Source of the DNA: Amycolatopsis alba DSM 44262
GTDB lineage: Bacteria > Actinomycetota > Actinomycetes > Mycobacteriales > Pseudonocardiaceae
Assembly (NCBI RefSeq): GCF_000384215.1
Contig: NZ_KB913032.1
Span: forward strand, 769,021-833,020
Reading direction: 5' to 3'
DNA: 64,000 bases
This document shows, piece by piece, positions 33,601 through 60,348 of this stretch. The translations under genes were made by a program, and so were the position numbers. Position 1 is the first letter of the stretch. Every line of letters begins with the position of its first letter. Under the pieces are notes generated by a model. The model saw only the letters and a program-made list of their open reading frames with translations, was not told where the DNA came from and ran no database searches.

Positions 33601-35085
33601 TCAGAACATCGCCCGCAGCTTCGCCCGGTCGATCTTCCCGTTCCGCGTCGAAGGCAGGGCGTCGAGTTCGGTGAACTGCTTCGGCACCATGAACCGGGGC
33701 AGCCCGGAGGCACACGCGCGGGCCAGCTCGTCCTGATCGACGACAGAGCCGGTCACGCTGGTGTAGAACGCCACCAGCTGGGTGGAGGCGCCGGCCTTGA
33801 CCCCGACGACCGCCGCCCGGCGGACCCCGGCGACCCCGGCGAGCACCGCTTCCACCTCACCCGGCTCGACCCGGTAGCCGTTCACCTTGAGCTGGTCGTC
33901 GAGCCTGGACAGGAAATGGAACCGGGAGCCGTCGAAGCGGACCAGGTCGCCGCTGAAGTAGCAGCGGCGCGTCCCGCCGTCGCGGTGGCCGACCTTCCGG
34001 AACTTCTCCGCGGTGAGCTCGTCGTCGCCGAAATACCCGATCCCGACACAGTTCCCCGCGATGATGAGTTCGCGGGTCTCGCCGGGAGCGAACGGGCGCA
34101 GCTGACCGTCCACATGGCACAGCAGCTCCGCGTCGACGACCGCGGTGCCGATGGGCGGCCGGTCGGGCCAGTTCGTGACGTCACCGGTCAGCCGGTACTG
34201 GGTGACCACGTGCGTTTCGCTGGGCCCGTACTGGTTCACCAGCGTGAGCGCACCGTCGGCGCAGAACTTCCGCACCTCGTCGTTGATCACGAGCTGTTCG
34301 CCCGCCACCGAGATCTCCCGCAGGCTCGGTGTCTTCTCCCCGGCGACGCACGCGGCCGTCGCCAGTCCGTGCAGCCCCACCACCGGCTGGAAGAGCCGGG
34401 CGGCGTCGTGCTCGCGGATGATGTCGAGCAGGGTGAACGGGTCCAGCCTGTCGTGATCGTTCACCACGATCAGGGTCGCGCCGGCGAGCCAGGTCGCCAC
34501 CATGTCCTCGTACACCATGTCGAAACCGATGGACGACATGTGCAGGGTGTTCGGCGGCCGGTCGTGGCTCCACCGCCGCAGGTGCCAGTGCCCCAGGTCC
34601 GCCAGGACGACCGGCGGCACCGCGACCGCCTTGGGCTCGCCTGTCGACCCCGAGGTAGGAATGACGTAGCAGACCGGACCGGTCGCGACCTCGTCCCGTT
34701 TCGCTCCCCGGATCGAGGCGAACGTGTGCTCGGGGATACCCGCCCCGACCGGCGCGCAGTCCCCGTCCCGCAGGATCATCGCGCAGCCCGCGCCGCTCAC
34801 CAGTTTCCCGGTCCAGGCGGGCGGCATGGCCGGATCGATGGACAGCACGCCCGCTCCGACGCGCCATACGCCCAGTACCACCGCGCACCGGTTCCACGAA
34901 CGGGTCCCGTGCACGTCGACGACGTCACCGGGGCCGACACCGCGTTCGGCGAGCCCGCCCGCGATCTCGGCCGACAGCTCGGCGAGTTCGCGGTAGGTGT
35001 GGGACACGCCGTCGTCGACGACCGCGACGGCTTCCGGATTCCGGGCGATGGCCTCGATCAGCGATCGGATCAGCGGGGCACTCAT
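33601..35085 (-). CDS. Stand-alone NRPS adenylation domain
   Basis: The protein has 494 residues; its ATG overlaps the PhyH stop in ATGA. It is a complete A domain: VCYVIPTSGSTGEPKAV (A3), NQYGPSETHVV (A5), RCYFSGDLVRFDG (A7), DDQLKVNGYRVEPGEVE (A8), and the C-terminal lysine in STRNGKIDRAKL (A10). There is no carrier domain after A10. Pocket residues read by eye (FDMVYED, FQPVV, SVAGEQ, QYGPSETHVV) do not match a specificity I recognise. It activates an amino acid as its AMP ester and must load a carrier in trans. Candidates are the PCP-E protein and the A-less last PCP of the large NRPS. Confidence 0.9.
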   Translation of the reverse strand: MSAPLIRSLIEAIARNPEAVAVVDDGVSHTYRELAELSAEIAGGLAERGVGPGDVVDVHGTRSWNRCAVVLGVWRVGAGVLSIDPAMPPAWTGKLVSGAGCAMILRDGDCAPVGAGIPEHTFASIRGAKRDEVATGPVCYVIPTSGSTGEPKAVAVPPVVLADLGHWHLRRWSHDRPPNTLHMSSIGFDMVYEDMVATWLAGATLIVVNDHDRLDPFTLLDIIREHDAARLFQPVVGLHGLATAACVAGEKTPSLREISVAGEQLVINDEVRKFCADGALTLVNQYGPSETHVVTQYRLTGDVTNWPDRPPIGTAVVDAELLCHVDGQLRPFAPGETRELIIAGNCVGIGYFGDDELTAEKFRKVGHRDGGTRRCYFSGDLVRFDGSRFHFLSRLDDQLKVNGYRVEPGEVEAVLAGVAGVRRAAVVGVKAGASTQLVAFYTSVTGSVVDQDELARACASGLPRFMVPKQFTELDALPSTRNGKIDRAKLRAMF

Positions 35086-35882
35086 GCGATCAGGCCTCCG
35101 TCGACCGGCTCCAGGGGCCGGTAGTCACGAGACGCCACGAATTCCGGCCGCGGGCTGGGCACTTCGCGCAGTTCGTTGTCGACACTGTTGTAGCTGACGA
35201 AAGCCATGGTCCGGTCGCTGGGCGACATGTTCGCGCCGGAGCCGTGCGCGATGCAGGGGTGGAAGAACAGCAGGCTCCCGGCGCGGCCGACGACGGACCG
35301 GATCTCCGAACCGGCGGTCACCTTGGCCATCTGCTCGGAATCCAGCGCGAACTTCAGCTTCGCCGACAGATCGGCCTCCCACTGCGAAGTGGCTTCGGAT
35401 TCAGGGCGCCAGCTGGAGATCTCACCGTCGCGATGCGAACCGGGCACGACCAGCAACGGTCCATTGTGCTCGGTCGCGTCGTCCAGCAACAGCGCGACGT
35501 TGACCGCCCGCGGCTCCGGCATCCCGTCCTTCTGCCCCCAGACGCTGTAGTCCTGGTGCCACTGCCAGACCTCCCCGCGCAGCGCCCGCTTGGCGTTGAC
35601 CTTGCACTGGAACACGTGGACCTTGCTCTCCAGCAGCTCCTCCGCCGCCGCCAGCAGCTCGGGCAACCGCACCAGCCGGGAGAACAGCGGGCCCGTGGTG
35701 TGGCAGCCGTGGATGCCGCGCACCGTGGTCCCGTCCTCTTCGAAGATGCGCCCCGGATGCTCGGTCGCGTAGAGATCGGACACCTCGCGGCGCAAGGCGG
35801 CGATGTCGCCGTCGTCGAAAACGTCTTCGAGGAGCAGGAACCCTTCGGACCGGTATTCCGCTATCTGACTTTCCGTGAGCAT
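35082..35882 (-). CDS. PhyH-family Fe(II)/2-oxoglutarate dioxygenase (amino-acid hydroxylase type)
   Basis: About 266 residues from the ATG at 35882; an ATG at 35924 overlapping the upstream stop as ATGA would add 14 residues. The N-terminus LTESQIAEYRSEGFLLLEDV and the iron site H-x-D in WQWHQDYSVWG are typical of PhyH/EctD enzymes. A distal His lies in FFHPCIAHGS, and Arg in SPSDRTMAF probably binds 2-oxoglutarate. Its layout resembles GriE-type hydroxylases of free branched-chain amino acids. It is coupled to the stand-alone A gene, so it may hydroxylate that enzyme's amino acid or its precursor. Confidence 0.85.
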   Translation of the reverse strand: MLTESQIAEYRSEGFLLLEDVFDDGDIAALRREVSDLYATEHPGRIFEEDGTTVRGIHGCHTTGPLFSRLVRLPELLAAAEELLESKVHVFQCKVNAKRALRGEVWQWHQDYSVWGQKDGMPEPRAVNVALLLDDATEHNGPLLVVPGSHRDGEISSWRPESEATSQWEADLSAKLKFALDSEQMAKVTAGSEIRSVVGRAGSLLFFHPCIAHGSGANMSPSDRTMAFVSYNSVDNELREVPSPRPEFVASRDYRPLEPVDGGLIA

Positions 35883-35920
35883 GGCTCGGTTACCTCTCTC
35901 CGTGAATGTGTGGTGCCCGT

Positions 35921-37684
35921 TCATGTCCGGAGCCCCAGTTCGTCGATCACCGCGCTGATGCTGATCACGCTCAGCCGCGCGTCCCCTTTGCCCCCGGCCT
36001 CGATCCGGTCGAGCGCGTCCGCGCGGAAGACACCACCGGCGGCGACCAGATCCCGCCAGCCGTCCATCAGGTCGTCCTGGTCGAGGGCGCTCAAGGCGTG
36101 GGCGGTGAAACCCTGCTTCGCGCGCCGCAGAACCGATTCCGGGACGATGCCCGCATACGCCGACTTGAGGCAGGCCTTGCCCTCGAAGTCGACGACCTTC
36201 TCCTCGTCGCCGATCCGCAGTGCCAGCTCGACGACGGGATTGCCGAGGAACGGATACCGGCCCTCGACGGAGTTGGCCATCAGCATCGCGTCGCCGTGGT
36301 CGCCGAGCAGATGCCCGCCCAGTTGCACGGAGACGTCGGCCACCGACCGCAGCTGCATCGGGGTGAGGGCCGAGACCTCGTCGTCGGAGAAGGGAATCAG
36401 CCTGTCTCTCCAGAATTCCTGGCCACCGAGCGCTTCCCGGCTTTCCGGGGTCAGGACGGCCCGGCGCCCGTCCACCTTTCGCCAGTCGACTTCCCAGGCG
36501 AAATCGGCGCGCCCCCAGGCACTCTCGTTCTCCTCGCGGCGCTGGTGCGGCTTCCTGCGCTGCCCGTCGAACGCGTACGAGTCGTAGCCGAAGAACAGCT
36601 CGTCGGCTCCCTCTCCCGAAAGCACGCCTTTGATCCCGCTGAACCGGACTTCCCGCGAAAGCATCAGGGCCGCGACGTTGTAGGTCTCCCGCTGCGGGGA
36701 ACAGCAGTGCCGCACCATCCGTTCGAATTCGGTGGCGATGTCCTTGGCGAGGCAGGAAACCTCGACGTGCTCGCTGCCGACGGCCTCGGCGATCTCGCGC
36801 TGGAACCGATGCTCGTCCAGCAGCGCGTCGCCGAACACCGCCGAGTACGTGCGAAGCGGTTTCCCCAGGGCCGCGGCGGCTTCCACGACCAAGGTCGAGG
36901 AGTCGAAGCCTCCGCTGAGGTACGCCCCGATCTCGACGTCGGCACGGAGACGATCACGCACCGCCTGCCGGACCCCGTGGCGGATCTCCTCCGCGGTCAC
37001 CGGGGCCCCGCCCGTCTCGAACTCGCCGTACCGCCAATACCGGACCGTCCGGTGCCCGCCGTCGCCGAACCGCACCACGGTCCCCGGCGGAACGGCGCGG
37101 ACGTCCCGCACCAGCGTGCGCGGCGGGACGATGTTGCCGAGCTGGAGATACTGATCGACCGCGCCGAGGTCCAGTCGCCCGCTGCCCGGCACCGACCGCA
37201 CGAGCGGTCCCAGCTCCGAGCAGAAATGCGTCCGCCCGCCCTGCCCGGTGTAGTAGAGCGGGCAGATGCCGAACCGGTCCCGGCCGAGGTGGAGGGCGTT
37301 CTCGGCCCGGTCGTGGATCGCGGTGGCGAACTGCCCGTCGATCAGGGCGAGCCCGGCGGGCCCGTAGCGCGCGAACAGTTCAGGGATGACGGCCACGTCG
37401 ACGCGATTGGCGGTCCGCTCCATGCCGAGCCGGGTGCGCAACTCGGCGGCGTTGTAGATCTCGCCGTTCGTGATGGCGGCGAACCGGCCGCTCGCGTCCT
37501 CGGCGGGCTGCCAGCCGTCCTTGAGCGCGGTCATGCCGAGGCGGCCGAGTTTCGCCGAGAGCACCGGGGTGTTCAGCGAATAGGTCTCGTCGGGTCCGCG
37601 ATGGGTGAGCCGGGAATGCATGGTCGCCGCGATGGTCCGATCGACCTCGCCGTCCGGCGCGAAAGTCCCGCAAAGGCCGCACAT
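35921..37684 (-). CDS. Glutamine-hydrolysing asparagine synthase (AsnB family)
   Basis: The protein has 587 residues from the ATG at 37684, which puts the glutaminase nucleophile at Cys2 (MCGLCGTFAPDG). N-terminal class II glutaminase motifs: THRGPDE, NGEIYN. The C-terminal synthetase PP-loop is AYLSGGFDSSTLV, and GVLSGEGADELFFGYD is also intact. It would convert an aspartate-like beta-carboxylate to the amide with ATP and glutamine. Its gene sits four bases after the A-PCP gene, whose pocket looks Asp/Asn-like. A free or carrier-bound (hydroxy)aspartate is therefore a plausible substrate. Confidence 0.9.
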   Translation of the reverse strand: MCGLCGTFAPDGEVDRTIAATMHSRLTHRGPDETYSLNTPVLSAKLGRLGMTALKDGWQPAEDASGRFAAITNGEIYNAAELRTRLGMERTANRVDVAVIPELFARYGPAGLALIDGQFATAIHDRAENALHLGRDRFGICPLYYTGQGGRTHFCSELGPLVRSVPGSGRLDLGAVDQYLQLGNIVPPRTLVRDVRAVPPGTVVRFGDGGHRTVRYWRYGEFETGGAPVTAEEIRHGVRQAVRDRLRADVEIGAYLSGGFDSSTLVVEAAAALGKPLRTYSAVFGDALLDEHRFQREIAEAVGSEHVEVSCLAKDIATEFERMVRHCCSPQRETYNVAALMLSREVRFSGIKGVLSGEGADELFFGYDSYAFDGQRRKPHQRREENESAWGRADFAWEVDWRKVDGRRAVLTPESREALGGQEFWRDRLIPFSDDEVSALTPMQLRSVADVSVQLGGHLLGDHGDAMLMANSVEGRYPFLGNPVVELALRIGDEEKVVDFEGKACLKSAYAGIVPESVLRRAKQGFTAHALSALDQDDLMDGWRDLVAAGGVFRADALDRIEAGGKGDARLSVISISAVIDELGLRT

Positions 37685-37688
37685 GGCG

Positions 37689-39356
37689 CTACACGCTCCG
37701 CTCTCGCAGCTGATCCGTGAGCACGCGCAGATCTCCGGCGCGCAGGACGTCACGCACCCCCGCGTCCAGCCAGCCCAGCTCGCGCAGCTTCGCGACCAGG
37801 ATCAGCGTCGACGCCGAATCGCCGCCCAGCGCGAAGAAGTTGTCCTCCAGCGAGGCGTCCCCGACGCCGGTGAGGCGGCGGACGAGGGTGATCACCTGCC
37901 GATCCGGGCCCGGCGCCCCGTCTTCGCCGAGGATCCGGTTCCCCCGCAGGGCATCGCGGTCGACCTTGCCGTTGACGGTGTACGGCAGCGCGTCGACGCG
38001 TTCGAGCACGGAAGGAATCTTGTACGGGTCGAGGACCCCTTCCAGATGCCTCCGGAGTTCCCTCGGGTCGGCGTCACCCAGGTAGTAGCAGACCAGGGCG
38101 TCGTCACCGGCGACCTCCGAACCGTCGTGCGATTCGACGGTCAGAACCGCCTCGGCGACCGATTCCGCCTGGCACACGACGTTCTCGAGCTCGCCGAGGT
38201 CCAGCCGGTAGCCGCGGACCTTCACCTGGTGGTCCAGCCGTTCGACGAAGTACAGGCCGCCGTCGCGGAGCTCGGCGACGTCACCGGTCCGATACTCCGT
38301 GCCGTCGCCGAAAGGCCGCACACCGTGTTCGGTCAGATAGCCGGCGGCGACCGCGGAGCCGGTGATCACGATCTCGCCCCGGTGCACAGGGCCCCCGGCC
38401 GACGCGGGCGAATCGTCGATGTCGCGCAGGTGGTAGCCGCAGTCACCGATCAGGTCGCCGAGGGGAACGCCGTCGCGGCAGCCCTCCGGGTCGAGCGGAC
38501 CGCTCAGCAGATTGCACACCGTGGTTTCCGTCGCGCCGTAGGCGTTGTGCAACGCCGCCACCGCGGACCATTTGGCGACCACCGCGGGACGGCACGCCCC
38601 GCCGCCGTTGATCACGTGGCGCAGCCGCATCGCGGCACTGGGCTCCGTCGCGGTCAACGCGAACGGAGTGGTCTTGAGGTGGGTGATCCCGAAGCGCTCC
38701 ACCGTGTCCCGCAACTCGGCGCCGGGTGCCAGGCGTGCTTCGTCGAGCACCACCAGGCAGGCGCCCGCGGTCAGGGTCCAGAGGATCTCGGTCATGCACC
38801 CGTCGAAGGTCAGCCGGGCGAATTGCAACGTCCGCGAGCCCGGCCCCACGGACAGCCGTTCCGCATGCTCCCGGACGACGACGGCGAGCGGTTCCGGGCG
38901 CACCAGGACGCATTTGGGTTCGCCGGTCGAGCCGGACGTCTGGATGGCGTAGCAGAGCTCCCCCTCGACGCTGGGGGTTCCGAGGGATTCCTTGGCACGC
39001 CAGGCTTCCGGGACGTCGGCGAGGTCGACATCGCCGTCCTCCCGAGACCGCGCCAGCCGCCGGACGCCGAGCAGCCGGACCTTCTCGGAGTTCGAAGACA
39101 CGCTGTCCCGGCTGTCGAGGAAGACGAACGGGCGTCGTGCCCGGAGGGCCCCGACCATCGCCGTGATCGCGCCGAGGCCCCTGCCCGCCTCGATTCCGAC
39201 GAACCCGCCGGGCGGGATCTCCGCGCGCAGCTCGTCCGCGAACACCTGGGTGAGCTTGTCGAACTCGCGATAGCGGACCGTCCGGTCCGCCGTCTGCACG
39301 GCGTCACCGTCCGGGTTCTCCCGCAGGGCGCGTTCGAAGGCGTCTACAAGGGACAT
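37689..39356 (-). CDS. NRPS A-PCP didomain, Asp/Asn-like pocket
   Basis: The protein has 555 residues from the ATG at 39356, which has GGAG four bases upstream; ATG 39377 is an alternative. A domain about 1-475: YAIQTSGSTGEPKCVLV (A3), NAYGATETTVC (A5), TEYRTGDVAELRDG (A7), DHQVKVRGYRLDLGELE (A8), NGKVDRDAL (A10). PCP about 485-550 with ALGGDSAST, Ser near 513. Pocket residues by eye are D-G-T-K-I-G-A-V-C-K. Thr and Lys at the third and fourth positions are shared with Asp/Asn-type codes (DLTKxG...). There is no C domain, so it probably presents a carrier-bound residue to tailoring enzymes, as SyrB1 does. Confidence 0.88.
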   Translation of the reverse strand: MSLVDAFERALRENPDGDAVQTADRTVRYREFDKLTQVFADELRAEIPPGGFVGIEAGRGLGAITAMVGALRARRPFVFLDSRDSVSSNSEKVRLLGVRRLARSREDGDVDLADVPEAWRAKESLGTPSVEGELCYAIQTSGSTGEPKCVLVRPEPLAVVVREHAERLSVGPGSRTLQFARLTFDGCMTEILWTLTAGACLVVLDEARLAPGAELRDTVERFGITHLKTTPFALTATEPSAAMRLRHVINGGGACRPAVVAKWSAVAALHNAYGATETTVCNLLSGPLDPEGCRDGVPLGDLIGDCGYHLRDIDDSPASAGGPVHRGEIVITGSAVAAGYLTEHGVRPFGDGTEYRTGDVAELRDGGLYFVERLDHQVKVRGYRLDLGELENVVCQAESVAEAVLTVESHDGSEVAGDDALVCYYLGDADPRELRRHLEGVLDPYKIPSVLERVDALPYTVNGKVDRDALRGNRILGEDGAPGPDRQVITLVRRLTGVGDASLEDNFFALGGDSASTLILVAKLRELGWLDAGVRDVLRAGDLRVLTDQLRERSV

Positions 39357-39379
39357 GGGACTCCAGTTCCGGGGCATGA

Positions 39380-40129
39380 TCACGCGGGCTTGAGGTAGCC
39401 GCCGTCGCAGCGGATCCCGGTACCCGTGATGTAGGCGGCGCGGTCGCTCGCCAGGAAGGTCACCAGCTCCCCGATGTCCTGGGGAGTGCCGTAGCGGCCC
39501 AAGGGAATCGTTTCGAGGACCTCGCCCCGCACCGATCCGGCTGACCGCCCGAGCCGCTCGGCGGTGGCCGCTTCGACCACGCGGAGCCGGTCCGTGTCGA
39601 TCTTGCCGGGCAGTACGTGGTTGACCGTGATGCCGTACCGGCCGACGCTTTCGGCCAGCAGCTTGAGATAGGCCTGCACGGCGGCACGGGCGATGGTCGA
39701 TCCGGCGAGGCCGCCGATCGGCACCGACAGCGAGGTGGAGGTGATCCCGATGAGCCGTCCCCAGCGGTTGCTCTTCATCGACGGCAGACACGCCTCGACG
39801 GCGCTGCGGACCGAAAGGAGCATCGACCGCACGGCCTCGTCCAGCTGCTCACCGGACAGCTGCTCGACCGTTCCGGGGCCGAATCCGGGCGTGTTCAGCA
39901 GGACGACGTCGTACGGGCCGTTCTCGGCGACCAGGTCGCCGACCCGCCGGGGGTCGCCGAAGTCGCAGGCGAACGAGTGGTGACCGGTCCCCGGCAGGTC
40001 CTCGGCCACCTCGGCGGCCCGGATCGCGTCCCGGCCGGTGACCGTGACCGCGTCGCCGGAAGCCGCCAGGCACCGGGCCACCCCGAGCCCGATCCCCTTG
40101 GTGCCGCACAGCACGAGCGCTCGCCTCAT
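39380..40129 (-). CDS. Atypical short-chain dehydrogenase/reductase
   Basis: The protein has 249 residues; its ATG at 40129 overlaps the FAH stop in ATGA. The SDR fold is clear: LCGTKGIGLGVARCLA at the nucleotide site, an LLNTPGFGPG segment where NNAG is usual, ITSTSLS for the catalytic Ser strand, and CDGGYLKPA at the C-terminus. However, the expected YxxxK reads STIAR (after GGLAG), so the catalytic Tyr and Lys seem replaced. It may use another mechanism or have lost redox activity. Operon neighbours suggest work on a keto or hydroxy acid. Confidence 0.83.
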   Translation of the reverse strand: MRRALVLCGTKGIGLGVARCLAASGDAVTVTGRDAIRAAEVAEDLPGTGHHSFACDFGDPRRVGDLVAENGPYDVVLLNTPGFGPGTVEQLSGEQLDEAVRSMLLSVRSAVEACLPSMKSNRWGRLIGITSTSLSVPIGGLAGSTIARAAVQAYLKLLAESVGRYGITVNHVLPGKIDTDRLRVVEAATAERLGRSAGSVRGEVLETIPLGRYGTPQDIGELVTFLASDRAAYITGTGIRCDGGYLKPA

Positions 40130-40956
40130 GGCCCGACGGGGTGGGTGAGGGTGCCCACGCGCTCGACCACGGCCCGCACGACGTCCCCGCCGTCGATCGG
40201 GACGGCGCCAGGGGTGCCGGTGCAGATCACCGTGCCGGGTTCGAAGGTCCGGCCCGCGGTGAAGTACTCCACGAGGTAGCCCAGGTCGTACTTCATGTCC
40301 CGCGGCGTCGCCTTCGCGATCACCTCGCCGTTGCGGACGGTGGAGATCCGGACCTCGTCCAGGCTGCCGCCGGGGAACTCGTCCAAGGTCACCAAGGCCG
40401 GGCCGATACTGCAGAACGTGTCGAACCCCTTCGCCCAGGGGATGTAGCGCGGGTTCTCGCGGATCGCGTCCTCCGCCGTCAGGTCGAGGACGGCCGTGAC
40501 CCCGGCGATGACGGACCGCCAGTCGTCGCGGGACACGTTCTTGCAGCGGGTGCCCACGACCAGGCCCAGCTCCGCCTCCGCGGTGACCCGCCGCGACTGC
40601 GACGGCAGCCGGATGGTCCCGCCGTTGCCGATCAGGCAGGAGGACGGCCGCAGGTACGACCCCGGACCGCGGGCGGGCTGCTCGGTGGCCAGATCCTCCG
40701 AGTGCCGCCGGTAGTTGAGACCGGCGCCCCAGATGTCGGCGTCGCGGTCGGCGATGGTGGCGGCACCGGACAGGTCGACGTCGACCCCGTCGCCCGGCTG
40801 GGCCCTGATCCTGGCCGCCAGGTCGCCGAATCCCTTGTCCCCGACCACGTCCCCGATGCGGGTGAAACCTTCGTAGCCGCTGATCTCCCGCAGCGGGAAC
40901 CACCTGTCGTCGATTCCCGCGACGATGTCCTGTCCGCTGCCCTTGGCCAGCTTCAT
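40126..40956 (-). CDS. Fumarylacetoacetate hydrolase (FAH)-family enzyme
   Basis: The protein has 276 residues with a C-terminal FAH fold. The metal-binding acidic residues are in AEAELGLVVGTRC. The following segment LDLTAEDAIRENPRYIPWAKGFDTFCSIGP matches the NDVSxRD...KxFDTFxPxGP block. The family includes 2-oxo-4-pentenoate hydratases, decarboxylases, acylpyruvases and C-C hydrolases. Because it lies 13 bases after a DmpG-like aldolase gene and overlaps the SDR gene, it probably processes the aldolase product. Which reaction it catalyses is not visible. Confidence 0.85.
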   Translation of the reverse strand: MKLAKGSGQDIVAGIDDRWFPLREISGYEGFTRIGDVVGDKGFGDLAARIRAQPGDGVDVDLSGAATIADRDADIWGAGLNYRRHSEDLATEQPARGPGSYLRPSSCLIGNGGTIRLPSQSRRVTAEAELGLVVGTRCKNVSRDDWRSVIAGVTAVLDLTAEDAIRENPRYIPWAKGFDTFCSIGPALVTLDEFPGGSLDEVRISTVRNGEVIAKATPRDMKYDLGYLVEYFTAGRTFEPGTVICTGTPGAVPIDGGDVVRAVVERVGTLTHPVGP

Positions 40957-40969
40957 CGAGCCAGTCCTC

Positions 40970-42010
40970 TCAGTTCGCCAGCTGGTAGTACCGGGGAGTG
41001 CCGTTGCCGGCGATCCGGGCCGCCGCGGCGTGGAAGTCGGCCGCGCGCGGGCTTTCCCCGGCGACCACGACCGCGGTCTCCATGAGCCGGGCCGGATCGG
41101 TGTGGAACTTGACCGCGAGCTCTTCGACCAGCGGGAAGAAGCCGGAGTGGATACCGATCACGCCACCGAGGACCTGCATCTTGCGGTCCTCGCCGATCAC
41201 GTCCATGTTGACCCGGCAGACCTCGGCGAGTTCGGCCAGCGCCTGGTAGTCGAACCGGTCCGTGTCCAAGATCTTGAGGATCGCGGCGAGGGATTCGGTC
41301 GCGGCGTTGCCCGCCCCTCGGCCGATGCCGTTGAGTGTCCCGTCGAGAATCGTGGCGCCCGCCCGGAAAGCGGTGACGGTGTTGATGTTGGCCAGGCCGA
41401 GATTGTCGTGACCGTGGAAGCCCACGACGGGATACCGTTCGGCGACGGCGCCGACGTACTCCTCGACGGTCTCCGGGATCATCGCGCCGTAGGAGTCGAC
41501 CACGTAGACACCCGCGATCTCCGGCCCGATCCCGTCCAGCATGTCGAGCAGCCGGTGGACCGGCGTGGCACTGGACTTCATCAGGTTGAGGTACACCTGC
41601 CCGCAGACGTCGGTGACCTGCCGCAGGTACGGCAGATGTTCCCGGACCCGGTCCGGCTCCACGCCGACGCGGACGAAGGACATGCCGCGGTCGCACATCT
41701 GCCGGATGGTCGAGGTCCGGGTGAACTCGGGCTGGGCGAACATCCCCCACGGTTTCGTGGCCAGCGTCGACCTGGCGAGTTCACACCAGCTGAAATGGTC
41801 GATGTTGCCCGCTTTGATCCCGGTGCGCTCGGCCTCCAGGCCGATCCCGTGCCCGATCTCGACCTTGGAAACGGGGGTCTCTTCGAGCCGGGCGAGCAGC
41901 TCGACCACGAAATTCTCGTCGAACTGGAAGTCGACGGCGTAGGCACCGTCGCGCAGGGTGCAGTCGAGCAGTTCGATCTCCGACGTGGCCCGCGATCGGC
42001 TGTCTTCCAT
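40970..42010 (-). CDS. DmpG/HMGL-like aldolase (4-hydroxy-2-oxo acid aldolase type)
   Basis: The protein has 346 residues from the ATG at 42010, after GAGGAGGG. The TIM-barrel opens with ELLDCTLRDGAYAVDFQF, the HMGL/DmpG metal and catalytic signature. Further motifs are VVDSYGAMIP and GFHGHDNLGLANINT (metal-binding HxH). The helical C-terminal domain (MQVLGGVIGIHSGFFPLVEE) resembles the DmpG communication domain. There is no acylating aldehyde dehydrogenase partner nearby. A biosynthetic aldol addition of pyruvate to an aldehyde is plausible, giving a 4-hydroxy-2-oxo acid for a non-standard amino acid. Confidence 0.85.
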   Translation of the reverse strand: MEDSRSRATSEIELLDCTLRDGAYAVDFQFDENFVVELLARLEETPVSKVEIGHGIGLEAERTGIKAGNIDHFSWCELARSTLATKPWGMFAQPEFTRTSTIRQMCDRGMSFVRVGVEPDRVREHLPYLRQVTDVCGQVYLNLMKSSATPVHRLLDMLDGIGPEIAGVYVVDSYGAMIPETVEEYVGAVAERYPVVGFHGHDNLGLANINTVTAFRAGATILDGTLNGIGRGAGNAATESLAAILKILDTDRFDYQALAELAEVCRVNMDVIGEDRKMQVLGGVIGIHSGFFPLVEELAVKFHTDPARLMETAVVVAGESPRAADFHAAAARIAGNGTPRYYQLAN

Positions 42011-42046
42011 AGGCTTTCGCCCTCCTCGGATCGGCTCGGAAAGGAC

Positions 42047-42173
42047 TCGTGAGTGGTGACGGGGGTTAGCGCGGACCAGCATTTACCTACCCACGCCTGA
42101 CCTGAGCGAAGGTGGCGGTTCCGCGGCTGTCGGGCAAATACGGGTCCGTCAGAACCGGCCTTGCCACTCACGA
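42047..42173. repeat. Small inverted-repeat element inside the NRPS operon
   Basis: TCGTGAGTGG (42047-42056) and CCACTCACGA (42164-42173) are perfect ends of a 127-base non-coding piece. Similarity continues inward on both sides (GGTT, CGGACC, ATTT, CC at matching positions for about 40 bases). It lies between the aldolase start and the stop of the 2OG dioxygenase gene. The inner CTGACCTG...GGTGG string also occurs at the right end of the 5.1-5.5 kb block. Confidence 0.6.
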
Positions 42174-42190
42174 GGACGGGGTACTCCGCC

Positions 42191-49308: not shown

Positions 49309-49318
49309 GAGCTACTCC

Positions 49319-50074: not shown

Positions 50075-50077
50075 CGG

Positions 50078-50721: not shown

Positions 50722-50731
50722 GGTGCTCCTC

Positions 50732-53700
50732 TCAGCGGGAGATGGTGGGTCGCAGCGCCGGCCGCGCGGGCCGGGCCGTGGCGAGGTATTCGGCGATCCC
50801 GGCGACGGTCGGGGACCGGAAGAGCTCACGGATCGGCAGTTCCAGTTCCAGCGCCGAACGCACACGGGAGATCAGCTGGGTCGCCAGCAGCGAATGCCCG
50901 CCGAGAGCGAAGAAGTTGTCGTCGACGCCGACCGAGTCCCGGCTGAGCACCCCGGCGAACAGCCCGCGGAGCACCTCTTCGTGCGGCGAACGCGGGCCGG
51001 TGGCGGCCGGTGCCACGACCTCGGGCGGGCCTTCGACGACACCACCGGGCCGCTCCTGCACGGGTGCCACGTCAAGATCACCGATCGGCCGGTCCGGGTC
51101 CTCGGCCACCTGTTCCAGCAGCCCCCGCAGGCGTTCGGCCAGCCGCTCACCGGTCGAGGGATCGAACAACGCCGTCGAGTACGTCAAGGCCCCGGCCAGC
51201 CCGGCCGCCGCGCCTTCGTGGTCGAGGCGCTCCTCCACCTCGACGAGGAGGTCGAATTTCGCCGTTGTCGACGGCACCGGCCATTCGACCGCTCGCAGCC
51301 CGGCGAATTCCGGCTCGGCGGTCGCGTGCTGGAGCTGGACCATGACCTGGAAGAGCGGGTGGCGACCGGCCGAACGCGGCGGGTTCACCGCTTCGACCAG
51401 CCGCTCGAACGGGACGTCCTGATGTTCGTATGCGGCGAGGTCGACGTCCCGCACGCGACGGAGCAGCTCCGCGAAACTCGGGTCCGCCGAGACGTCGGTG
51501 CGCAGGACCACCGTGTTGACGAAGAACCCGACGACCTCGTCCACCGCGTCGTCCGTCCGGCCGGCCACCGGGGTGCCGATCGGGATGTCCGCCCCCGCGC
51601 CCAGCCTGCTGAGCAGCGCGGCGAACGCGGCCTGGACCACCATGAACAGCGTGCAGTCGTGCGCCTTGGCGAGCGCGAGCAGGCTTCGGTGGAGTCCGGG
51701 GCCCCACTCGATGTCCGCCACCGCCCCGGCGTGGTCGCTGGTCTCCGGGCGCGGCCGGTCCACCGGCAGGGTCAGTTCCACCGGCAGCTCGGCCAGCCGG
51801 TTCCGCCAGTGGTCCAGCTGCCCGGCCAGCATCTCCGTCCCCAGTAGTTCCCGTTGCCAGAGCGCGTAATCGGCGTACTGGACCGGCAGCGCGTTCCACT
51901 GTGGAGTGCCGTCTCGCAGCCGGGCGGCGTAGGCGCCGGACAGGTCCCGCAGAAGCGGTCCGAGTGACCAGCCGTCGCAGACGATGTGGTGGAACACCAG
52001 CAGCAGGACGTGGTCCTCCTGGCCGGCCGCGAAAAGGTGGGCGACCATCGGCGGCCGTGCGGCCAGGTCGAACTGGTGCTCCGCCGCCGCGCGGATCGCC
52101 GTCTCGATCTCCGGCACTTCGCGATACGCCAGTTCCGGCCGCACCGATCCCGGCGCGAGCACCGACTGCACCGGTTTGCCGTCCTGTTCGGTGAAAATCG
52201 TCCGCAGGGCCTCGTGCCTGTCGACGACGTCGGCCAGCGCCCGTTCGAGCGCGTCCCGGTCCAGCGGACCGGACAGCCGCAGGGCGACGGGAAGGTTGTA
52301 GCTGGTCCCGGTCTCCTCCCACCGGCTCAGGAACCACAACCGCTGCTGGGCGAACGACAGCGGCAGCACCTCCGGGCGGCTTCCCACGCGCAGCGGCGGC
52401 CTGCCCGGCAGGGCCTCGTCCAGGCTGTCCGCCAGCCCGGCCACGGTCGGGGTGGCGAACAGCAGCCGGGCGGGCAGCTCCACGCCGAGGACCGAACGCG
52501 CCCGGCCGCTCAGCCGCATCGCCAGCAGCGAGTGGCCGCCGAGGTCGAAGAACCCGTCGTCGATCCCCACCGAGTCACGGCCGAGGACCTCCGCGAACAG
52601 CCCGCACAGGAGTTCCTCGCGGAGATTGCGTGCCGCACGACGGGTTCCGGTGGCGTACGCCGGTTTCGGCAGCACCGCGCGGTCGAGTTTCCCGTTCGGG
52701 GTCAACGGCAGTTCGTCGATCACGACGATCGCCGACGGCACCATGTAGTCCGGCAGGCTTTCCCGCGCGAAATCGCGCAGCCGCTTCACGTCCAGGTCCG
52801 CGTCACGCGCCAGCACGTATCCGACGAGCCGCTTGTCGCCGGGCTGGTCCTCGCGCAGCACAGCCACCGCGTGCACGACGTCTTCGTGGCGGGCCAAGGC
52901 CGCTTCGACCTCGCCGAGCTCCACCCGGAAGCCGCGGATCTTCACCTGATCGTCGGCGCGGCCGAGGAATTCCAGCGCGCCGTCCGCGGTCCACCGGACG
53001 AGGTCACCGGTCCGGTACAGGCGCCGTCCGGGCCGGAACGGGTTCGCCACGAACCGTTCCGCGGTCAGCGCGGGACGGTTCACGTAGCCGCGGCCCAGCT
53101 GGGCTACCCCGACGTAAAGCTCCCCGACGACTCTCGGCGGGACGAGCCGCAGTCCTTCGTCCAGCACGAACACCTCCACGTCGGCGATCGGGCGGCCGAT
53201 GAGCGGGCGGTCGCTCTCGTCGGAAGTCCAAAACAGACTGTCCACAGTGGTCTCGGTCTGCCCGTAGATGTTGTACGCGGTGATCCCGTCGGTCTCGCGG
53301 ATCCGGGCCCACAGCTTCTCTCCGACCGTCTCGGCGCCGGTCATCAACACCGCAGGCGGGTTATCGAGCATCCCTTGCTCGACCAGTTCTTCGGCGTAGC
53401 TGGGCATCACGTCGAGGGCGTCGATGCCGACGGTCTCGATGTACCGCGCCATCGCGGCGGGATCGCGGCGGGTCTCGTCACCGATCAGGTGGAGCTCGTG
53501 GCCGACGGCCTGCCACAGCAACCCGACGACCGAGGTGTCGAACGAGAGGGACGCGCTCAACGCCATCCGGCAGCGTCGCGATCCGCGGATCCGCTCCGAG
53601 GTGGCGATGACCTCGGTGCGGTAGAAAGCGAGCAGATTCGCCAGCCCGCCGTGGGTCACCATCACCCCCTTGGGCCGTCCTGTCGATCCAGACGTGTACA

Positions 53701-56700
53701 CGACGTACGCCGGGTGGTCCGCGGCGAGCGCGACGACGGGTTCTTCCGCCTCGTCCGCCGCGACGTCGTCCAGGAGGACCGTCTCGAATCCGGGCAGCGC
53801 GGAGGCGCTGTCGGTGACGGCCAGGACCGCGCCGGAATCCTCCAGGAGATAAGCGATGCGTTCGGCCGGGTACGCCGTGTCGACGAACAGGTACGCGGCC
53901 CCCGCTTTCAGCACCCCGAGCAGCGCGACCACGAGGTCCGCGGACCGGGGAAGGGCGACCGCCACCACCTGGTCCGGTCCGGCTCCCCGGCTCGCGAGGT
54001 GGTGCGCGAGCCGGTTGGCGCGGGCGTCGAGTTCCGCGTAGGTCAACGCCGTGTCCTCGAACACCAGCGCCGTCTCCTCCGGCGTACGGGCGACCTGCTC
54101 GCGGAACACACCGGGCAGGAACAGGGTCGGCGGCGCGGGCTCGGCACTCTCGCCGACGAGACGCTCCCGTTCCTCCGCCGAGAGCACCTCGACCGCCCCG
54201 ATCGGCCGGTCCGGCGCGGCGAGCACCTGCTCCAGCAGCCGCCGCAACCGGTCTGCGAGCTGTTCGGCGGTGACCCGGTCGAACAGGTCGGTGGCGAACT
54301 CGAGATAGCCGGTCAGCCCGGCGGGCGCGCCACCGGCGTCACGTGCGTCCTCCAGTTCCAGGCTGAGATCGAACTTGGCGACATCCCAGCTCACCGGGCA
54401 CCGTTCGACCCGCAGGCCGCCGAAGTCCGGAGTGCCGGAGCCGGCGTGCTGCACCTGGATCATGACCTGGAACAGGGGGTGCCGGGACAGCGAGCGTTCG
54501 GGCTGTACTTCTTCGACGAGGCGCTCGAACGGCAGGTCCTGCTGCGCGAAAGCCTCCAGATCCGTGTCGCGGACCCGTCGCAGCAGTTCGGCGAATCCAG
54601 GATCGTCCGAGGTGTCGGTGCGCAGCACCAGGGTGTTGACGAAGAAGCCGACCAGATCGTCGAGCGCGCTGTCCTGCCTTCCCGCGACTGGGGTCCCGAA
54701 CGGGATGTCGGTCCCCGCGCCCATCCGGGTCAGCAAGGCCGCGAAACCGGCCTGCACCACCATGAACAACGTGCAGCCGGTGGACCTGGCGAGGTCGAGA
54801 AGCCTGCCGTGCAGCTCCGGCTCCCAGCGGATCTCCACGATCTCCCCGGCATGCCCCGCCACGGCCGGGCGCGGCCGGTCCGTCGGCAGCGTCAGCTCCG
54901 ACGGCAGACCGGCCAGCCGCGTCCGCCAGTACCCCAGCTGACGCGTGAGCAGGCTGTCCGGGTCCCCGGCGTCGCCGAGCAGTTCCCGCTGCCACAGTGT
55001 GTAGTCGGCATAGCGCACCGGCTGCGGCGGCCACTCGGGCGCCGAGCCGGAACAGCGGGCGGAGTAGGCCTGGCCGAGGTCGTCCAGCAGGGGCTTCAGC
55101 GACCATCCGTCGGCGGCGATGTGCTGGATGACCAGCAGCAGCACCTGCCGATCCTGCTCGAGCTGGAACAGAGTGGCCCGGACGGGCGCGTCCTCGGTGA
55201 GGTCGAACCGGTGACGGACCCGCTCAGCCATCGCCTCGGAGAGGTCCGACGGCGTCACTTCGACGACCTCGATACCCGGTACCGACCCGAGGATCACCGG
55301 ACGCGGCGCGCCACCGGACTCGGGGAAGATCGTGCGCAGGCTTTCGTGCCGTTCCGCGACGTCGGCGAGCGCCCGATCGAGCGCGGCCCTGTCCACCGTC
55401 CCGGTGAGCCGGACCGCGACCGGCACGTTGTACGTTCCCTCGCCGCGTTCCATCCGGTTCAGGAACCACAGCCGTCGCTGGGCGAACGACAGCGGCACCT
55501 CGTCGGTCCGCCCGCGGGCGCGCAGCACGGGACGCGCCACTCCGGCCGTACCGGTCCGCCGGGCCAGCCCGGCCACCGTGGGTTCGGCGAACAGGTCCCG
55601 GATCTCGAAACCCTCCCCCAGCACCGACCGGATCCGCGAGATCAGCCGGATCGCCATCAGGGAGTGGCCGCCCAGGTCGAAGAAGTGGTCGTCGATCCCC
55701 ACCTGCGCGACCCCGAGCACTTCCGCGAAGAGTCCACAAAGGATCTCTTCGCGCGGGTTCCGCGGCAGGCGCGCGGTTCGCGCGGCCCGGTCCGGCTCCG
55801 GCAGCGCGGCCCGGTCCAGCTTCCCGTTCGTCGTCATCGGCATGGCCTCGACCAGGACCACCGCGGCGGGGACCATGTAGTCGGGCACGCTGTCCGCCAC
55901 GAACCGGCGCAGCTCCCGGTCCGTGACTTCGGGAGAGCGAGCGACGGCGTACGCGACCAGCCCTTGGTCCTCCCGGAGCACGACAGCGGCTTGGGCCACG
56001 CCGGGGTGGCCAGCCAGCACCGCTTCGATCTCCCCGAGTTCCACGCGGAAGCCCCGGATCTTCACCTGATCGTCCACCCGGCCTGCGAAGTCCAGTGTCC
56101 CGTCGTCGTTCCAGCGGACCAGGTCACCGGATCGGTACATCCGCTCGCCGGGCAGGAACGGGCAGGCCACGAACCTCTCGGCGGTCAATCCAGGGCGGCC
56201 GGCGTACCCCCTGGCGAGCTGGACCCCGCTCAGGTACAGCTCCCCCGCCACCCCTGGCGGCACCGGCCGCAGCCCGCCGTCCAGGACGAACACCGACACG
56301 TTCGACACCGGCTTGCCGATCGGCACCGTGCTCCGCCGGTCGTCGCGGTGGCAGTCCCAGTAGGTCACTTCGACCGCCGTTTCGGTCGGACCGTAGAGGT
56401 TGCGCAGTTCGACGGCGTCGAAAGTGGCGAACAGATCGCGCTGTGTCTCCGCGGGCAGCGCCTCGCCGCTGCAGGAGACCCAGCGCAGCTTCGTGCAGTC
56501 CGCCGCGCTCGGCTCCCGGAGGAACGCCTGCAACATCGACGGCACGAAATGGACGACGCTCACCTCTTCACGCCGCATCAGCTCGGCGAGATACGCGGGG
56601 TCACGGTGGCCGTCGGGCTTCGCCAGCACCAAGGTCGCCCCGAAGAGCAAGGGCCCGAAGAACTCCCAGACCGACACGTCGAAACCGGCCGAGGTCTTCT

Positions 56701-58597
56701 GAAGCACGTTGTCCGCGCCGGTGAGCGGATACCGCCCTTGCATCCACCGCAGACGGTTCGCGATGGCGGCGTGGGACACCACGACACCCTTCGGCCGCCC
56801 CGTGGAACCGGAAGTGAAGATGACGTAGGCGGGATTCGCCGGGCACGGCGCTTCCGGCCGGGCAGAAGCGGGCGAGACCGGTTCGTCGAGCAACAACCTC
56901 GGGACGGACTCGGGGACGGCGTCGGCACTCTTCGAGTCGGTCAGGACGAGCATCGGGCCGCCGTCCTCGACCATGGCGGCGATCCGCCCGGCGGGGTACT
57001 CCAGATCGATCGGCAGGTAGGCGGCGCCCGCCTTGACCACGGCGAGGAGCGCGACCACCAGCTCCACCGAACGCGGCAGCGCCACGGCCACGATCCGCTC
57101 CGGACCGGCGCCCCGCCCGGCCAGCGCCGACGCCAGCCTGTCCACCCGCTCGTCCAGCTCGGCGTAGCTCACCCGTTCCTCCGGCGACACCAGGGCGACC
57201 GCGTCGGGTGTACGCCCGGCCTGTTCGGACCACAGTTGCGGCAGAGTCACGTCGGGCAGTTCGGCGGCGGTGTCGTTCCACTCCCGCAGAATCCGGTCGC
57301 GTTGCCCCGCCGACAGCATGGTCAGCGCGCCGACCTGCTGTCCGGGGTCGGCGGCCACCTGCTCCAGAAGCAGCACCAGCCGTTCGGCGAGATCGGCGGC
57401 AGCGGCGGCGGTGAACAGGTCCGGGCGGTAGTGCAGGCGCAGTTCGAGCCGCTCACCCGGTTCGACGGCGAGGGTCAGCGGGAAATGCGCGCTGTCGCGG
57501 AAAGTGATGCCGACTTCGAGCTCACCGCCGGGCGAGTCCACCTGGTAGTCGGCCATCGGGAAGTTGTCGAAGACCACGTTGGTGTCGAAGAGCGCGGTGG
57601 AAAACCCTGCCAGGCGCTGGATTTCCGGCAAGCCGAGGTGGTCGTGGGCGAGCAGCCCGGCGCGCTCGGCCTGGATCTGCTCGAACAGCGCGCTCACCGG
57701 CGCCGTCCGGTCCAGCCTCGCCCGCACCGGGACCGTGTTGATGAGCATGCCGATCATCGAGTCCGCGCCGGTCAGCTCCGCCGGGCGGCCGCTGACCGTC
57801 GAGCCGAACACCACGTCGTCGCGTCCGGTGAGCGAGCCGATCAGAATGGCCCAGACCCCTTGGCACACGGTGTTGAGCAGGACGTGGTCACGCCGGGCGT
57901 GCGCGGTCAGCAGCGCCGTCGTCTCCACCGTCAACCGGACAGCCACCTCCTCCGGCGGCGGCCCGCTCTGGGAATCGGCGGACGCGACGAAGGTGGGCTC
58001 GGTGATCCCTTCCAGTGCCGCCGCCCAGCTCCGCTCCGCGGCGGGCCGGTCCTGCGCCGTCAGCCACGCCAGGTGGTCCCGGTACGGACGGACCGGCGGC
58101 AGGCCGGTGGCGTCGCCGTCGCGGGAGTACACCGCGAACAGCTCCTGGAAGAGCAGGGCGAAGGACCAGCCGTCCAGCAGGAGGTGATGGGCGGTCACGA
58201 CCAGCCGGTGGCGGACGGCGGAATCCCGCAGGAGGGTGAACCGGATCAACGACGCGCCGCCGATGTCGATCCCCCGCGCCCAGTCCCGCTTGATCAGGTC
58301 CGCGGCGTCCTCGCGGCCGACTTCGACTTCCCGCCACTCCAACGGCGCGTCACGGCGGACCACTTGGATCGGTTGACCTGTTTTGCGGTACCGGAATCCG
58401 GACCGCAGGGTGGCGTGGCGCCGGATCACGGTTCCCGCGGCCGCGCGCAGGAGTGCCGGATCCAGCAGACCGGTGAGGTCGACCACGAACTGGGCCAGGT
58501 AGGGGCTGTGCGCTTCGCGGTCGTACAACGCGTGGAACAGCAGCCCTTCCTGCAGCGGTGACAGGGGAAGGATGTCCTCGACTACCGACTGGCTCAT
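50732..58597 (-). CDS. Three-module NRPS: C-A-PCP-C-A-PCP-C-PCP (last module lacks A)
   Basis: The protein has 2,621 residues from the ATG at 58597; a longer open frame is rejected because it overlaps the E-domain gene. Module 1: C, DCL-like ([25 protein letters not shown] near 137); A about 450-925, pocket D-V-W-H-S-S-L-V-E, close to Ser codes; PCP near 976. Module 2: C with [10 protein letters not shown] near 1159 (first His is Gln); A about 1500-1965, pocket D-T-V-D-L-T-I-V-D, unassigned; PCP near 2019. Module 3: C with [10 protein letters not shown] near 2204, then a short linker straight to PCP ([10 protein letters not shown] near 2562). The first C domain suits a D-residue donor, matching the upstream PCP-E protein. 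Confidence 0.94.
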
Positions 58598-58614
58598 CTT
58601 CAGTGTCACCTTCC

Positions 58615-60348
58615 TCAGAATGCCCGCAGTTCGGATTCGATCTCTTCGAGTTCGTTCTGCCCGAGCGAACTCAGGGTCAGGTCGGACGGGGTGAGACCGC
58701 CCGCCCAGGGTTGACGGGCGTGCGCGACCAGGGTCCGGAGCATCGTGAACCACGATTCCGCGAGCTCGCGTGTGTCCACTTCGGACACCATGCTTCCGGC
58801 CCAGGTCCAGGTGGCACGCAGCACCGGGCCGTCTTCCCGGTCCACGGTGGCCGCGTTGACCTCGATGCCGTGTGCCATGGGCATCCCCGAACCCGTGTCG
58901 TCCATGCCGGTCCCGTACTCCGGCATGACCGCCCAGTCGGCGTAGTCGGCGGCCCGGTGCCTGCCGAGGTAGTTGAAGCAGAACTCCGGTCGAGCCGCTT
59001 TCTCCAGCAGCGGCGCGGTTTCCGGGTTCAGGTAGCGAAGAAGGCCGTAGCGGACGCCCTTGTCGGGAATCGCGCGCAGTTGTTCCTTGACGCGCTTGAC
59101 GACGTCGCCCACCGTCGGCCCGGCGGACCGGATCTCGGCCCAGTCCGGCTCGCCAGGGTCGAGCCGGACCGGGAACAGGCTGGTGAACCAGCCAACGGTC
59201 CGGGAGAGATCCACGTCCGCGAGCGCGCTTTCCCGGCCGTGGCCTTCCAGGTTCAGCAACACGGTGCCGTCGCCCGCCGTGCCACGCCGTCGATGCCAGT
59301 CGGCCATCGCCAGCGCGAGACCGGCCAGGAGGACGTCGTTGATCTCGGCGTTGAACAGCGCGGGGACGGTGGTCAGCAGCGGTTCGGTGAACTCGCCGGG
59401 CAGGGACAAGGTGAAGCACCGGTCCCGGCTCTCCCGGTCACGGCCGGGAACGCTGTCCACGGCACCGATCCGGGCGGCGCCGGGCCGCAGCCGCTCCAGC
59501 CAGCCGGGCAGTTCCGCCAGCGTGGCCTTCGCGCTCGCCTGCGCGTTAAGCGTTTCGGACCAGCGGCGGAACGAGGTCGGGACCGGATCGAGCTCCCGGC
59601 CCGCCGTCTCCAGATCGGAAATCAGGACGCGCCAGGACATCGCGTCGATGGCCAGATGATGGACGACCAAGGCGAGCATGCCCTGCCGCGCCGGTCCGGC
59701 ATCGAACCACACGGCCTGGACGACGTTGCCCTCGCGGGGACGAAGGCGATCTCGCGCCTCGTCCGATTCTTGCCGGACCAGGGTGGCCAGGTCCTCCTCG
59801 GGGCGCCCTGCCACGTCGATCCGGCGGACGGCCGCGGTGACCGCGCCCACGGGAAGGGTTTCGAGTGCCCACGGTGTCCCCGTCAGGCGCAGGCGCAGGA
59901 TGTCGTGACGGTCCAGCAACGCCTGCACCATCAAGGTCAACCGCGCCTCGGTCAACGTCGAAGGCGTGCGGAGGACCGCGAACTGGTTGTAGGTGTCCAC
60001 CGGTCCGCCGCGTTCGGCCAGCCAGTGCATGACGGGCGTGGCGACGATCGGTCCCACCCCGTTGTCCTCGGCGGGCGCCGTGTCCACGGTGGTGGCCGTC
60101 GCCGCCAACGCTCCGATGTCCCGATGCCGCAGCACATCGCCGACGGTGATCCGCAGACCGGCCTTCCTGGCGCGGCTGACGAGCTGCATGGCGATGATGC
60201 TGTCCCCGCCGAGCGCGACGAAACCGTCGCCGATCCCGACGTCGCTCACCCTGAGCACGTCGGCGACGAGTGCACAAAGGACACTCTGGCTCCGGGTGAG
60301 CTCACCCGGATTCGGTTCAGCGAAACGACTGGTCACGTCTTCCCTCAT
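58615..60348 (-). CDS. PCP-epimerization didomain protein (NRPS start unit without A domain)
   Basis: The protein has 577 residues from the ATG at 60348; GTG 60336 with AGGGA upstream is an alternative. PCP about 15-85 has [11 protein letters not shown], Ser near 47; the GGDS form is usual before E domains. E domain about 110-560 has [12 protein letters not shown] near 230 and LEGHGRE near 368, both with the expected catalytic His and Glu, plus FCFNYLG. It should epimerise an aminoacyl group loaded in trans and hand the D-residue to the DCL-type C domain of the next protein, whose gene starts 17 bases after its stop. It is the first gene of the operon. Confidence 0.92.

Follow-up and report, generated by a model that had tools for sequence, protein, structure and literature searches.

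Nonribosomal peptide synthetase (NRPS) modules that lack an adenylation (A) domain, or in which this domain is inactive, are served in trans in the syringomycin, ramoplanin, enduracidin and albicidin systems, according to the passages of PMC8949500 on such modules, and the feeding of an A-less module in trans is a known mechanism. We analysed 64,000 nt of the 9.8-Mb single-contig genome of Amycolatopsis alba DSM 44262 (contig NZ_KB913032.1, positions 769021-833020; hereafter the window, whose own numbering is used for the coordinates below). It holds an NRPS gene cluster with a discrete peptidyl carrier protein (PCP)-epimerization (E) protein, an internal module without an A domain, a free A protein and an A-PCP didomain protein. 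As judged from the sequences of this cluster and its relatives, the cluster quite probably directs the assembly of a pentapeptide, D-X1 - Ser - DADH-type - X4 - X5 (DADH, diamino-dihydroxy-heptanoic acid), in which the free A and the A-PCP would do their loading in trans. As far as we have seen, three features are new with respect to the precedents: a split initiating A|PCP-E module together with an A-less internal module, supply genes of the amino-group carrier protein (AmCP) type tied to an A-domain code, and natural swaps. No description of this cluster family was found in the open-licence PMC literature, and a full-text literature search for the A-domain signature codes gave no match.

Enduracidin and ramoplanin are much longer peptides. 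As in the present cluster, a stand-alone A-thiolation (T) protein serves a module unable to activate its own residue, but the enduracidin and ramoplanin A-T proteins are described with an N-terminal extension of ~300 aa, for which the 560-aa A-PCP of the window has no room (PMC8949500). In the syringomycin system (SyrB1/SyrC), an A-T protein likewise feeds the A-less last module, in the account given by the same passages (PMC8949500). SyrB2 halogenates, however, whereas the PhyH protein encoded here has the HxD motif. The rotihibin cluster of Streptomyces scabies also has an A-less condensation (C)-T module (RthA), a stand-alone A-T protein (RthB) and a proposed shuttle resembling a type II thioesterase (TEII; RthD). 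Rotihibin differs in being a lipopeptide with allo-Thr supplied in trans, a first residue with its own A domain and release by a reductase, and the passages on its biosynthesis mention no AmCP set (PMC8552735). The WS9326A system shares two trans-acting A proteins (Cal22 and Cal23), both needed according to knock-outs, and an A-less C-PCP module. Its trans-acting A proteins are, however, assigned to modules 5 and 6 around a single A-less module, its residues are different, and no discrete PCP-E is mentioned in the passages that describe it (PMC7539972). Capreomycin CmnI is an A-less module 3 in a five-residue NRPS, but is reported there to be served by the A domain of module 1 and not by a separate A-PCP (PMC12400406). 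Finally, a kinase, a reductase, a transketolase pair and an aminotransferase lead to DADH in azinomycin, and an AmCP carrier takes part in vazabitide (PMC9570651). The same set is found here, although those pathways lead to azabicycles, whereas the AmCP set of A. alba adjoins a pentapeptide NRPS. The initial annotation had named SyrB1 and pacidamycin as partial parallels; SyrB1 was kept as a comparison, and the enduracidin/ramoplanin, rotihibin RthB and WS9326A systems turned out to be closer.

Pfam scans and a motif parse of the window proteins established the order PCP-E; C-A-PCP-C-A-PCP-C-PCP; C-A-PCP-thioesterase (TE); A-PCP; free A on the minus strand, on which all genes described below lie unless noted, and thus bore out the order claimed in the initial annotation. 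The predicted loading and epimerising protein for residue 1, PCP-E (58615..60348), is a closed open reading frame (ORF) of 577 aa that matches only PCP (PF00550) and C/E-type (PF00668) families in Pfam, with the E motif [11 protein letters not shown] and the carrier motif GGDS. Its orthologues are 70-76% identical in 8/8 genomes, and a listing of its relatives contains, apart from the protein of the window, 19 proteins at 70-75%, some of which come from the genomes compared here. The central NRPS (50732..58597) has three C, two A and three PCP domains in a true length of 2621 aa starting at [10 protein letters not shown], the start of the 2895-aa ORF being too long. Its third module, C-PCP, lies at approximately 50783..52369 (Pfam C at 2351-2789 of the 2895-aa ORF), and its C3 and PCP3 motifs are only 359 residues apart, versus 835 and 858 in both complete modules. 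An A domain overlooked in this module or before the E domain was looked for by Pfam and motif spacing, and none was present in either place. There are six carriers and not five as previously counted, the A-PCP holding its own PCP.

The catalytic motifs were then inspected. All three C domains of the central NRPS (motifs [16 protein letters not shown] and HHIVCDGW) retain the second His and the Asp, while the first His of C2 is replaced by Gln in the window and in 7/8 relatives. The carrier serine is intact in all three PCPs of this protein, and the free A retains A3, A8 and the A10 lysine. The terminal C domain has HHxxxD intact in all nine five-residue clusters introduced below; the following residue is Gly in the window and Streptomyces netropsis and Glu in the other seven (HHIACDG versus HHIACDE, HHxxxDG being the usual form). 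In 7/9 clusters this domain was placed by homology and a separate check, the motif parse having missed those seven.

The arrangement, which the initial annotation had not recognised from any known cluster, is not unique. A search with the free A against GTDB species genomes gave 19 loci, of which 8 at 80-85% identity were kept and 11 at 23-38% were left out as unrelated A domains. All eight genomes hold the discrete PCP-E. Together with the window, S. netropsis, S. phyllanthi, S. tagetis, [Kitasatospora] papulosa, Umezawaea tangerina, S. longisporoflavus, S. longispororuber and Streptomyces sp. TSRI0281 form a five-residue set, and the domain architecture, including the A-less module 3, is identical in 9/9 clusters (C3-PCP3 spacing of 353-389 residues). 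Since the architecture recurs in eight further named genomes, chance or mis-assembly is unlikely. An internal C-T module without A is thus present throughout, and a separate A-T, or A plus T, occurs in the same cluster or genome in 8/9 cases, none being found for S. netropsis. Three further Streptomycetaceae clusters (G656, G677 and G927) have a six-residue layout, free A, PCP-E, C-A-PCP-C-A-PCP-C-PCP, C-A-PCP-C-A-PCP-TE and A-PCP; here, too, the motif parse finds no A domain in module 3, and the clusters include an A-PCP. In G927, the central NRPS (L092-L094) has a frame break near C3, whether real or a sequencing error, so that its A-less module had to be pieced together. The free A is uncommon: in a class-wide set of 394 genomes it occurs in 2, including that of the window, and in the family of G562 it occurs in 8 of 394, with G656, G677 and G927 among the eight. 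G562 coincides in coordinates with S. netropsis, and G781 with K. papulosa; in these two and in G939 the discrete PCP-E lies 19-26 kb from the free A, and it was not found in G731 and G889, two of the eight free-A genomes in that family.

The comparison also bears on which carrier each A protein would load. The free A (33601..35085; Pfam; code DMEFSAQVV) is the proposed loader of PCP-E. In G656, G677 and G927, its homologue shares a strand with the PCP-E ORF and ends 36, 46 and 58 bp, respectively, ahead of it, so that the two look like a split A|PCP-E module, which supports the loading of PCP-E by the free A. The gene order of the window itself, in which the free A and PCP-E lie ~23.5 kb apart, would also suit a reversed pairing, in which the free A would serve module 3, and PCP-E would be loaded by the A-PCP or its partner. 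We regard this pairing as very improbable in view of the direct adjacency in all three six-residue clusters, and of a free-A code that is constant in 9/9 five-residue clusters while the second A varies. Moreover, the first C domain of the central NRPS contains SPLQEG, which we take to be a sign of a post-E, D-accepting C domain and which fits the receipt of a residue from PCP-E.

A PhyH-family 2-oxoglutarate (2OG) hydroxylase gene (35082..35924; PF05721 3e-37; PDB leucine hydroxylase 5nch, E 1.6e-57; 86-92% in 8/8 relatives) overlaps the free A gene. It accompanies the free-A code DMEFSAQVV in 9/9 clusters and was not found with the code DVEFAAEVV in the fetched stretches of the three six-residue clusters. 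Because its presence tracks the free-A code, PhyH probably modifies residue 1. A role as a SyrB1-type halogenase was considered and rejected: in PhyH-type halogenases, Ala or Gly replaces the iron-binding Asp, and HxD marks the hydroxylase type. Here HxD is intact, as HQDYS in the window, with H123 and D125 invariant in 9/9. For the closest solved relative (PDB 7dzz/7e01/7e07), no relevant paper was among the matches listed, and the AlphaFold model of the protein, built with nine close sequences, had low confidence (pLDDT 31.5).

We then turned to the residues selected by the central NRPS. Its A1 code is DVWHSSLVE in the window and DVWH[SIV]SLV[DE] across the clusters, which is Ser-like. The A2 code is DTVDMGIVD in the window and seven other clusters, and DIYHLGLLC, resembling a 4-hydroxyphenylglycine (Hpg) code, in U. 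tangerina and the three six-residue clusters. Beyond PCP-E lie a DegT/DnrJ/EryC1-type aminotransferase gene (60544..61890, plus strand; PF01041 9.6e-92) and genes for the C-terminal (62221..63180; PF02779, PF02780) and N-terminal (63177..63986; PF00456 1.5e-43) subunits of a transketolase. Past the end of the window, the transketolase genes are joined in the same run by LysK-, LysZ-, ArgC/LysY- and LysX-like genes and a gene for an AmCP carrier (L026:1004-4939). The initial annotation had set the right edge of the cluster too early, as DegT, the transketolase pair and the AmCP operon all lie beyond it. The LysK-like hydrolase scored 354.8 bits, just below the NCBIfam cut-off of 363, the LysZ/LysW-aminoadipate-type kinase 242.7 bits, above the cut-off of 223, and the ArgC/LysY-type reductase was also above its NCBIfam cut-off. 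The LysX-like ligase matched PF22626 above cut-off and TIGR02144 with 266.5 bits, just below 275.6. The carrier is a LysW-like protein of 54 residues with CxxC pairs and a C-terminal EEDWGE containing the EDWGE motif (PF21344, the Pfam LysW family, 45.3 bits against a cut-off of 27; TIGR01206 49.0 bits, just below 53.2). With the transketolase pair and the aminotransferase for C2 extension also present, this run is, by its gene content, the gene set of an AmCP pathway.

The distribution of these genes was compared in a presence table of 25 genes in 12 clusters, in which a gene counts as absent if the fetched stretches lack it (36-60 kb for the four DIYHLGLLC clusters; the AmCP gene search in G656, G677 and G927 covered the 36-52 kb fetched). 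All eight AmCP-pathway genes were present in 8/8 DTVDMGIVD and 0/4 DIYHLGLLC clusters, and conversely, an Hpg set (Hmo-like FMN_dh, HmaS-like HPPD-like and HpgT-like genes) was present in 0/8 and 4/4, respectively. The carrier sequence itself was found in the window's own genome and in 7/7 Streptomyces/Kitasatospora clusters, orthologues of the ligase, kinase, reductase and hydrolase in all eight, and DegT orthologues of 80-84% in the 7/7 other DTVDMGIVD clusters, with none in the fetched stretches of the four. Because the AmCP and Hpg genes switch with the A2 code, the amino acid that module 2 incorporates as residue 3 is probably of the DADH type. The terminal A domain, considered as an alternative site for such a monomer, was rejected, its code DTEDLGLLD being shared by U. 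tangerina, in which no AmCP set was found near the cluster; the nearest LysX-like gene of that genome (54%) is on a different contig. A second LysX-like gene (47%) in the A. alba genome, at G000:C1:7212097-7213271, adjoins a partial match to the PF10014 dioxygenase described below (41%), and probably belongs to another AmCP-type locus.

For the A-less module 3, the candidate supplier in the window is the stand-alone A-PCP (37689..39371; 560 aa; code DGTKIGAVC; PF00501, PF13193, PF00550), proposed to provide residue 4. Orthologues occur in S. phyllanthi (86%) and S. longispororuber (83%), so that with the window 3/9 genomes have this protein. Five others (U. tangerina, TSRI0281, S. tagetis, K. 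papulosa and, on a different contig, S. longisporoflavus) have an unrelated second A with a separate PCP. Its five matches are 82-100% identical, and four show one internal stop, which is at the last codons in S. tagetis and was assumed to be alike in the others. Hence 8/9 genomes hold one of two unrelated kinds of second A, each with its own PCP, and none holds both. The combination of an A-less module in 9/9 clusters with such a second A in 8/9 supports the predicted service of module 3 by the second A in trans, as does the count of A domains, which add up to a pentapeptide. The initial proposal that this count needs trans loading by the free A and the A-PCP thus gained support from the cluster comparison.

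If module 3 were instead loaded by the cis A domain of a different module, which would then serve both, the A-PCP would only make a modified amino acid or a side product. This has a precedent in capreomycin, in which protein mass spectrometry showed that CmnA-A1 loads the A-less CmnI, according to the passages on that system (PMC12400406), and the occurrence of the A-PCP cassette by itself in other genomes would agree with it. However, there would then be little reason for the clusters to retain either second A, whereas 8/9 clusters have kept an additional A, of one or the other unrelated kind, along with its PCP, next to free-A and terminal-A codes constant in 9/9 and an A2 code constant in 8/9, and the three six-residue clusters also combine an A-less module 3 with an A-PCP. 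We therefore consider cis loading unlikely.

A TEII gene (49319..50074; PF00975 1e-28) encodes a possible aminoacyl shuttle. It is conserved across the relatives, in truncated form in S. netropsis. In G656 and G677, the homologous gene shares 4 bp with that of the A-PCP, an overlap reminiscent of the proposed rotihibin shuttle.

Several observations weigh against the loading in trans and the residue assignments proposed here. S. netropsis retains the A-less module 3, while neither second A was found in its genome at E <= 1e-70 (matches to the alternative A at 36-38% were treated as ordinary A domains in these searches), as the cis loading discussed above would also allow. In K. papulosa, an extra NRPS protein with the A code DPMQLGLVW lies ~4 kb beyond the free A, so that its A count is not tidy, and S. 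longispororuber has a second A-PCP relative (64%) on a different contig. Neither kind of second A has an evident route to PCP3. The TEII motif, GHSMSG, has a serine, whereas the SyrC shuttle has a cysteine instead. The signature codes depend on an alignment with GrsA position numbering. Finally, all 12 clusters share descent, and the 8/8 versus 0/4 contrast of the AmCP genes consequently overstates the independent evidence.

The S. netropsis cluster (L051-L052) is decaying: its TEII is truncated, the PF10014 oxygenase gene is gone, and AsnB is reduced to a piece. In a tree of five core proteins, it groups with S. longispororuber and S. phyllanthi, which fits a loss of the second A, while the branch of the window is weakly supported. 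Such gene loss, together with the A-less and split modules, could suggest that the window's cluster is itself decaying and yields no product or a truncated peptide. Given that its key catalytic residues are intact and its core genes are 70-92% conserved across two families, we regard decay as improbable.

The pentapeptide assembly with trans loading, which is the reading we prefer, would then proceed as follows. X1 would be activated by the free A, loaded in trans onto PCP-E and epimerised, and D-X1 would pass from PCP-E to the post-E C domain with which the central NRPS begins. Module 1 would add serine, and module 2 an AmCP-made amino acid, for which glutamate on the AmCP would pass through the kinase, the reductase, C2 addition by the transketolase, the aminotransferase and release. 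Module 3 would receive its residue from the stand-alone A-PCP, either by transfer or by direct loading in trans, perhaps with help from the TEII, and the amino acid of the A-PCP is presumably produced or altered by the HMGL/FAA/AsnB cassette. The terminal NRPS (45367..49308; C-A-PCP-TE; 75-81% orthologues in 8/8 five-residue relatives), whose A code DTEDLGLLD is the same in 9/9 five-residue clusters, would add X5, probably a basic residue, and its TE would release the peptide. PhyH and two other 2OG oxygenases may hydroxylate residues.

U. tangerina provides an apparent natural case of subunit exchange. Its PCP-E, terminal NRPS, free A, TEII and major facilitator superfamily (MFS) proteins are 70-91% identical to those of the five-residue clusters and 47-60% to those of the six-residue clusters (the truncated S. 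netropsis TEII gave no match in this comparison). In contrast, the domains of its central NRPS, with bounds set by hand, are 66-77% identical to those of G656 and G677 and 40-63% to those of the five-residue clusters. Against G927, they are 67-78% identical from C1 to PCP2, and 44 and 29% past the broken frame. The central subunit was thus apparently exchanged along with the Hpg genes, both partner subunits being left in place. These relationships could reflect a modular peptide family, to which we give about an even chance, with an AmCP-made DADH-type residue at position 3, whole residue kits exchanged at positions 3 and 4, constant flanking subunits, and the A-less module 3 as a universal socket set by the trans protein. 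The position-3 kit would consist of the central NRPS subunit and its supply genes (AmCP/DADH or Hpg), and the position-4 kit of one of three A-plus-PCP kits with the codes DGTKIGAVC, DLRHLGQDV and DAQDLGLVD. Re-programming of NRPSs by domain or subunit swaps usually costs activity. Here, natural pairs of similar lines differ in one central subunit and, separately, in one trans-acting A kit. Two junctions, PCP-E / central C and central PCP3 / terminal C, are thus available ready-made for testing, and module 3 is a candidate socket. Should residue 3 be of the DADH type, at least eight genomes are predicted to encode members of a pentapeptide family with an AmCP-made amino acid.

The remaining genes complete the cluster. 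A small LuxR/GerE-type protein (PF00196 1.3e-06) is encoded in the longest ORF at 50359..50865, the start being uncertain and probably near 50720, and S. phyllanthi has a 326-aa GerE-type protein at the equivalent place. It is followed by an MbtH-like protein (50078..50290; PF03621 9.6e-27; motif-scan matches in 7/8 relatives), and, past the TEII and the terminal NRPS, by a predicted MFS exporter (44117..45370; PF07690 1.8e-36). The two further oxygenases are of the Asp_Arg_Hydrox/proline-hydroxylase type (43016..44005; PF05118 2.4e-18; weak match to L-proline cis-4-hydroxylase 4p7w, E 4.3e-4) and isoleucine-4-hydroxylase-like (42191..42967; PF10014 4.6e-26; PDB 8w8h, 6lnh), the latter being the one missing in S. 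netropsis. In a 10-kb-scale comparison, the G051 stretches, which hold a 51-52% relative of the former, showed no other cluster gene except a 31% AsnB match. No sulfotransferase-type Pfam match was found in any gene scanned here.

The A-PCP is flanked by an HMGL-type aldolase (40970..42082; PF00682; nearest NCBIfam family 4-hydroxy-2-oxovalerate aldolase, below cut-off), an FAA-hydrolase family protein (40126..40956; PF01557 8.5e-45), a short-chain dehydrogenase (SDR; 39380..40129; PF13561), with no counterpart found in the clusters of S. phyllanthi and S. longispororuber, and a glutamine-dependent, asparagine-synthetase-type (AsnB) amidotransferase beginning with MCGLCG (35921..37684; PF00733/PF13537; TIGR01536 315 bits, above cut-off). 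HMGL-FAA-(SDR)-A-PCP-AsnB also stands as a separate small cluster at L070, L076 and L078 (G022, G080 and G045, respectively), followed by an A-domain protein and a P450 in G022 and G045 and by a thioesterase in G022 and G080; G022 also has an amino-acid permease. Identity to the A-PCP is 58-100% for all of its best 120 relatives in the database, and HMGL/FAA/A-PCP/AsnB is apparently a widespread building-block cassette.

Two inverted repeats lie near the right end of the window, one of 26 nt (96% complementary, 1 nt between the arms; 62130-62182) between the DegT and transketolase genes, and the other of 34 nt (79%; 61952-62024); both look like small mobile repeats or terminators. To the left of the cluster, a FAAL/DIP2-like acyl-AMP ligase gene adjoins that of a DUF6801 protein (29584-32099), with no link to the cluster seen, and a 999-aa ORF at 26012-29011, which matches WXG100 with a score slightly below the Pfam cut-off, lies in a region of strongly negative AT skew (-0.26 at 24-28 kb).

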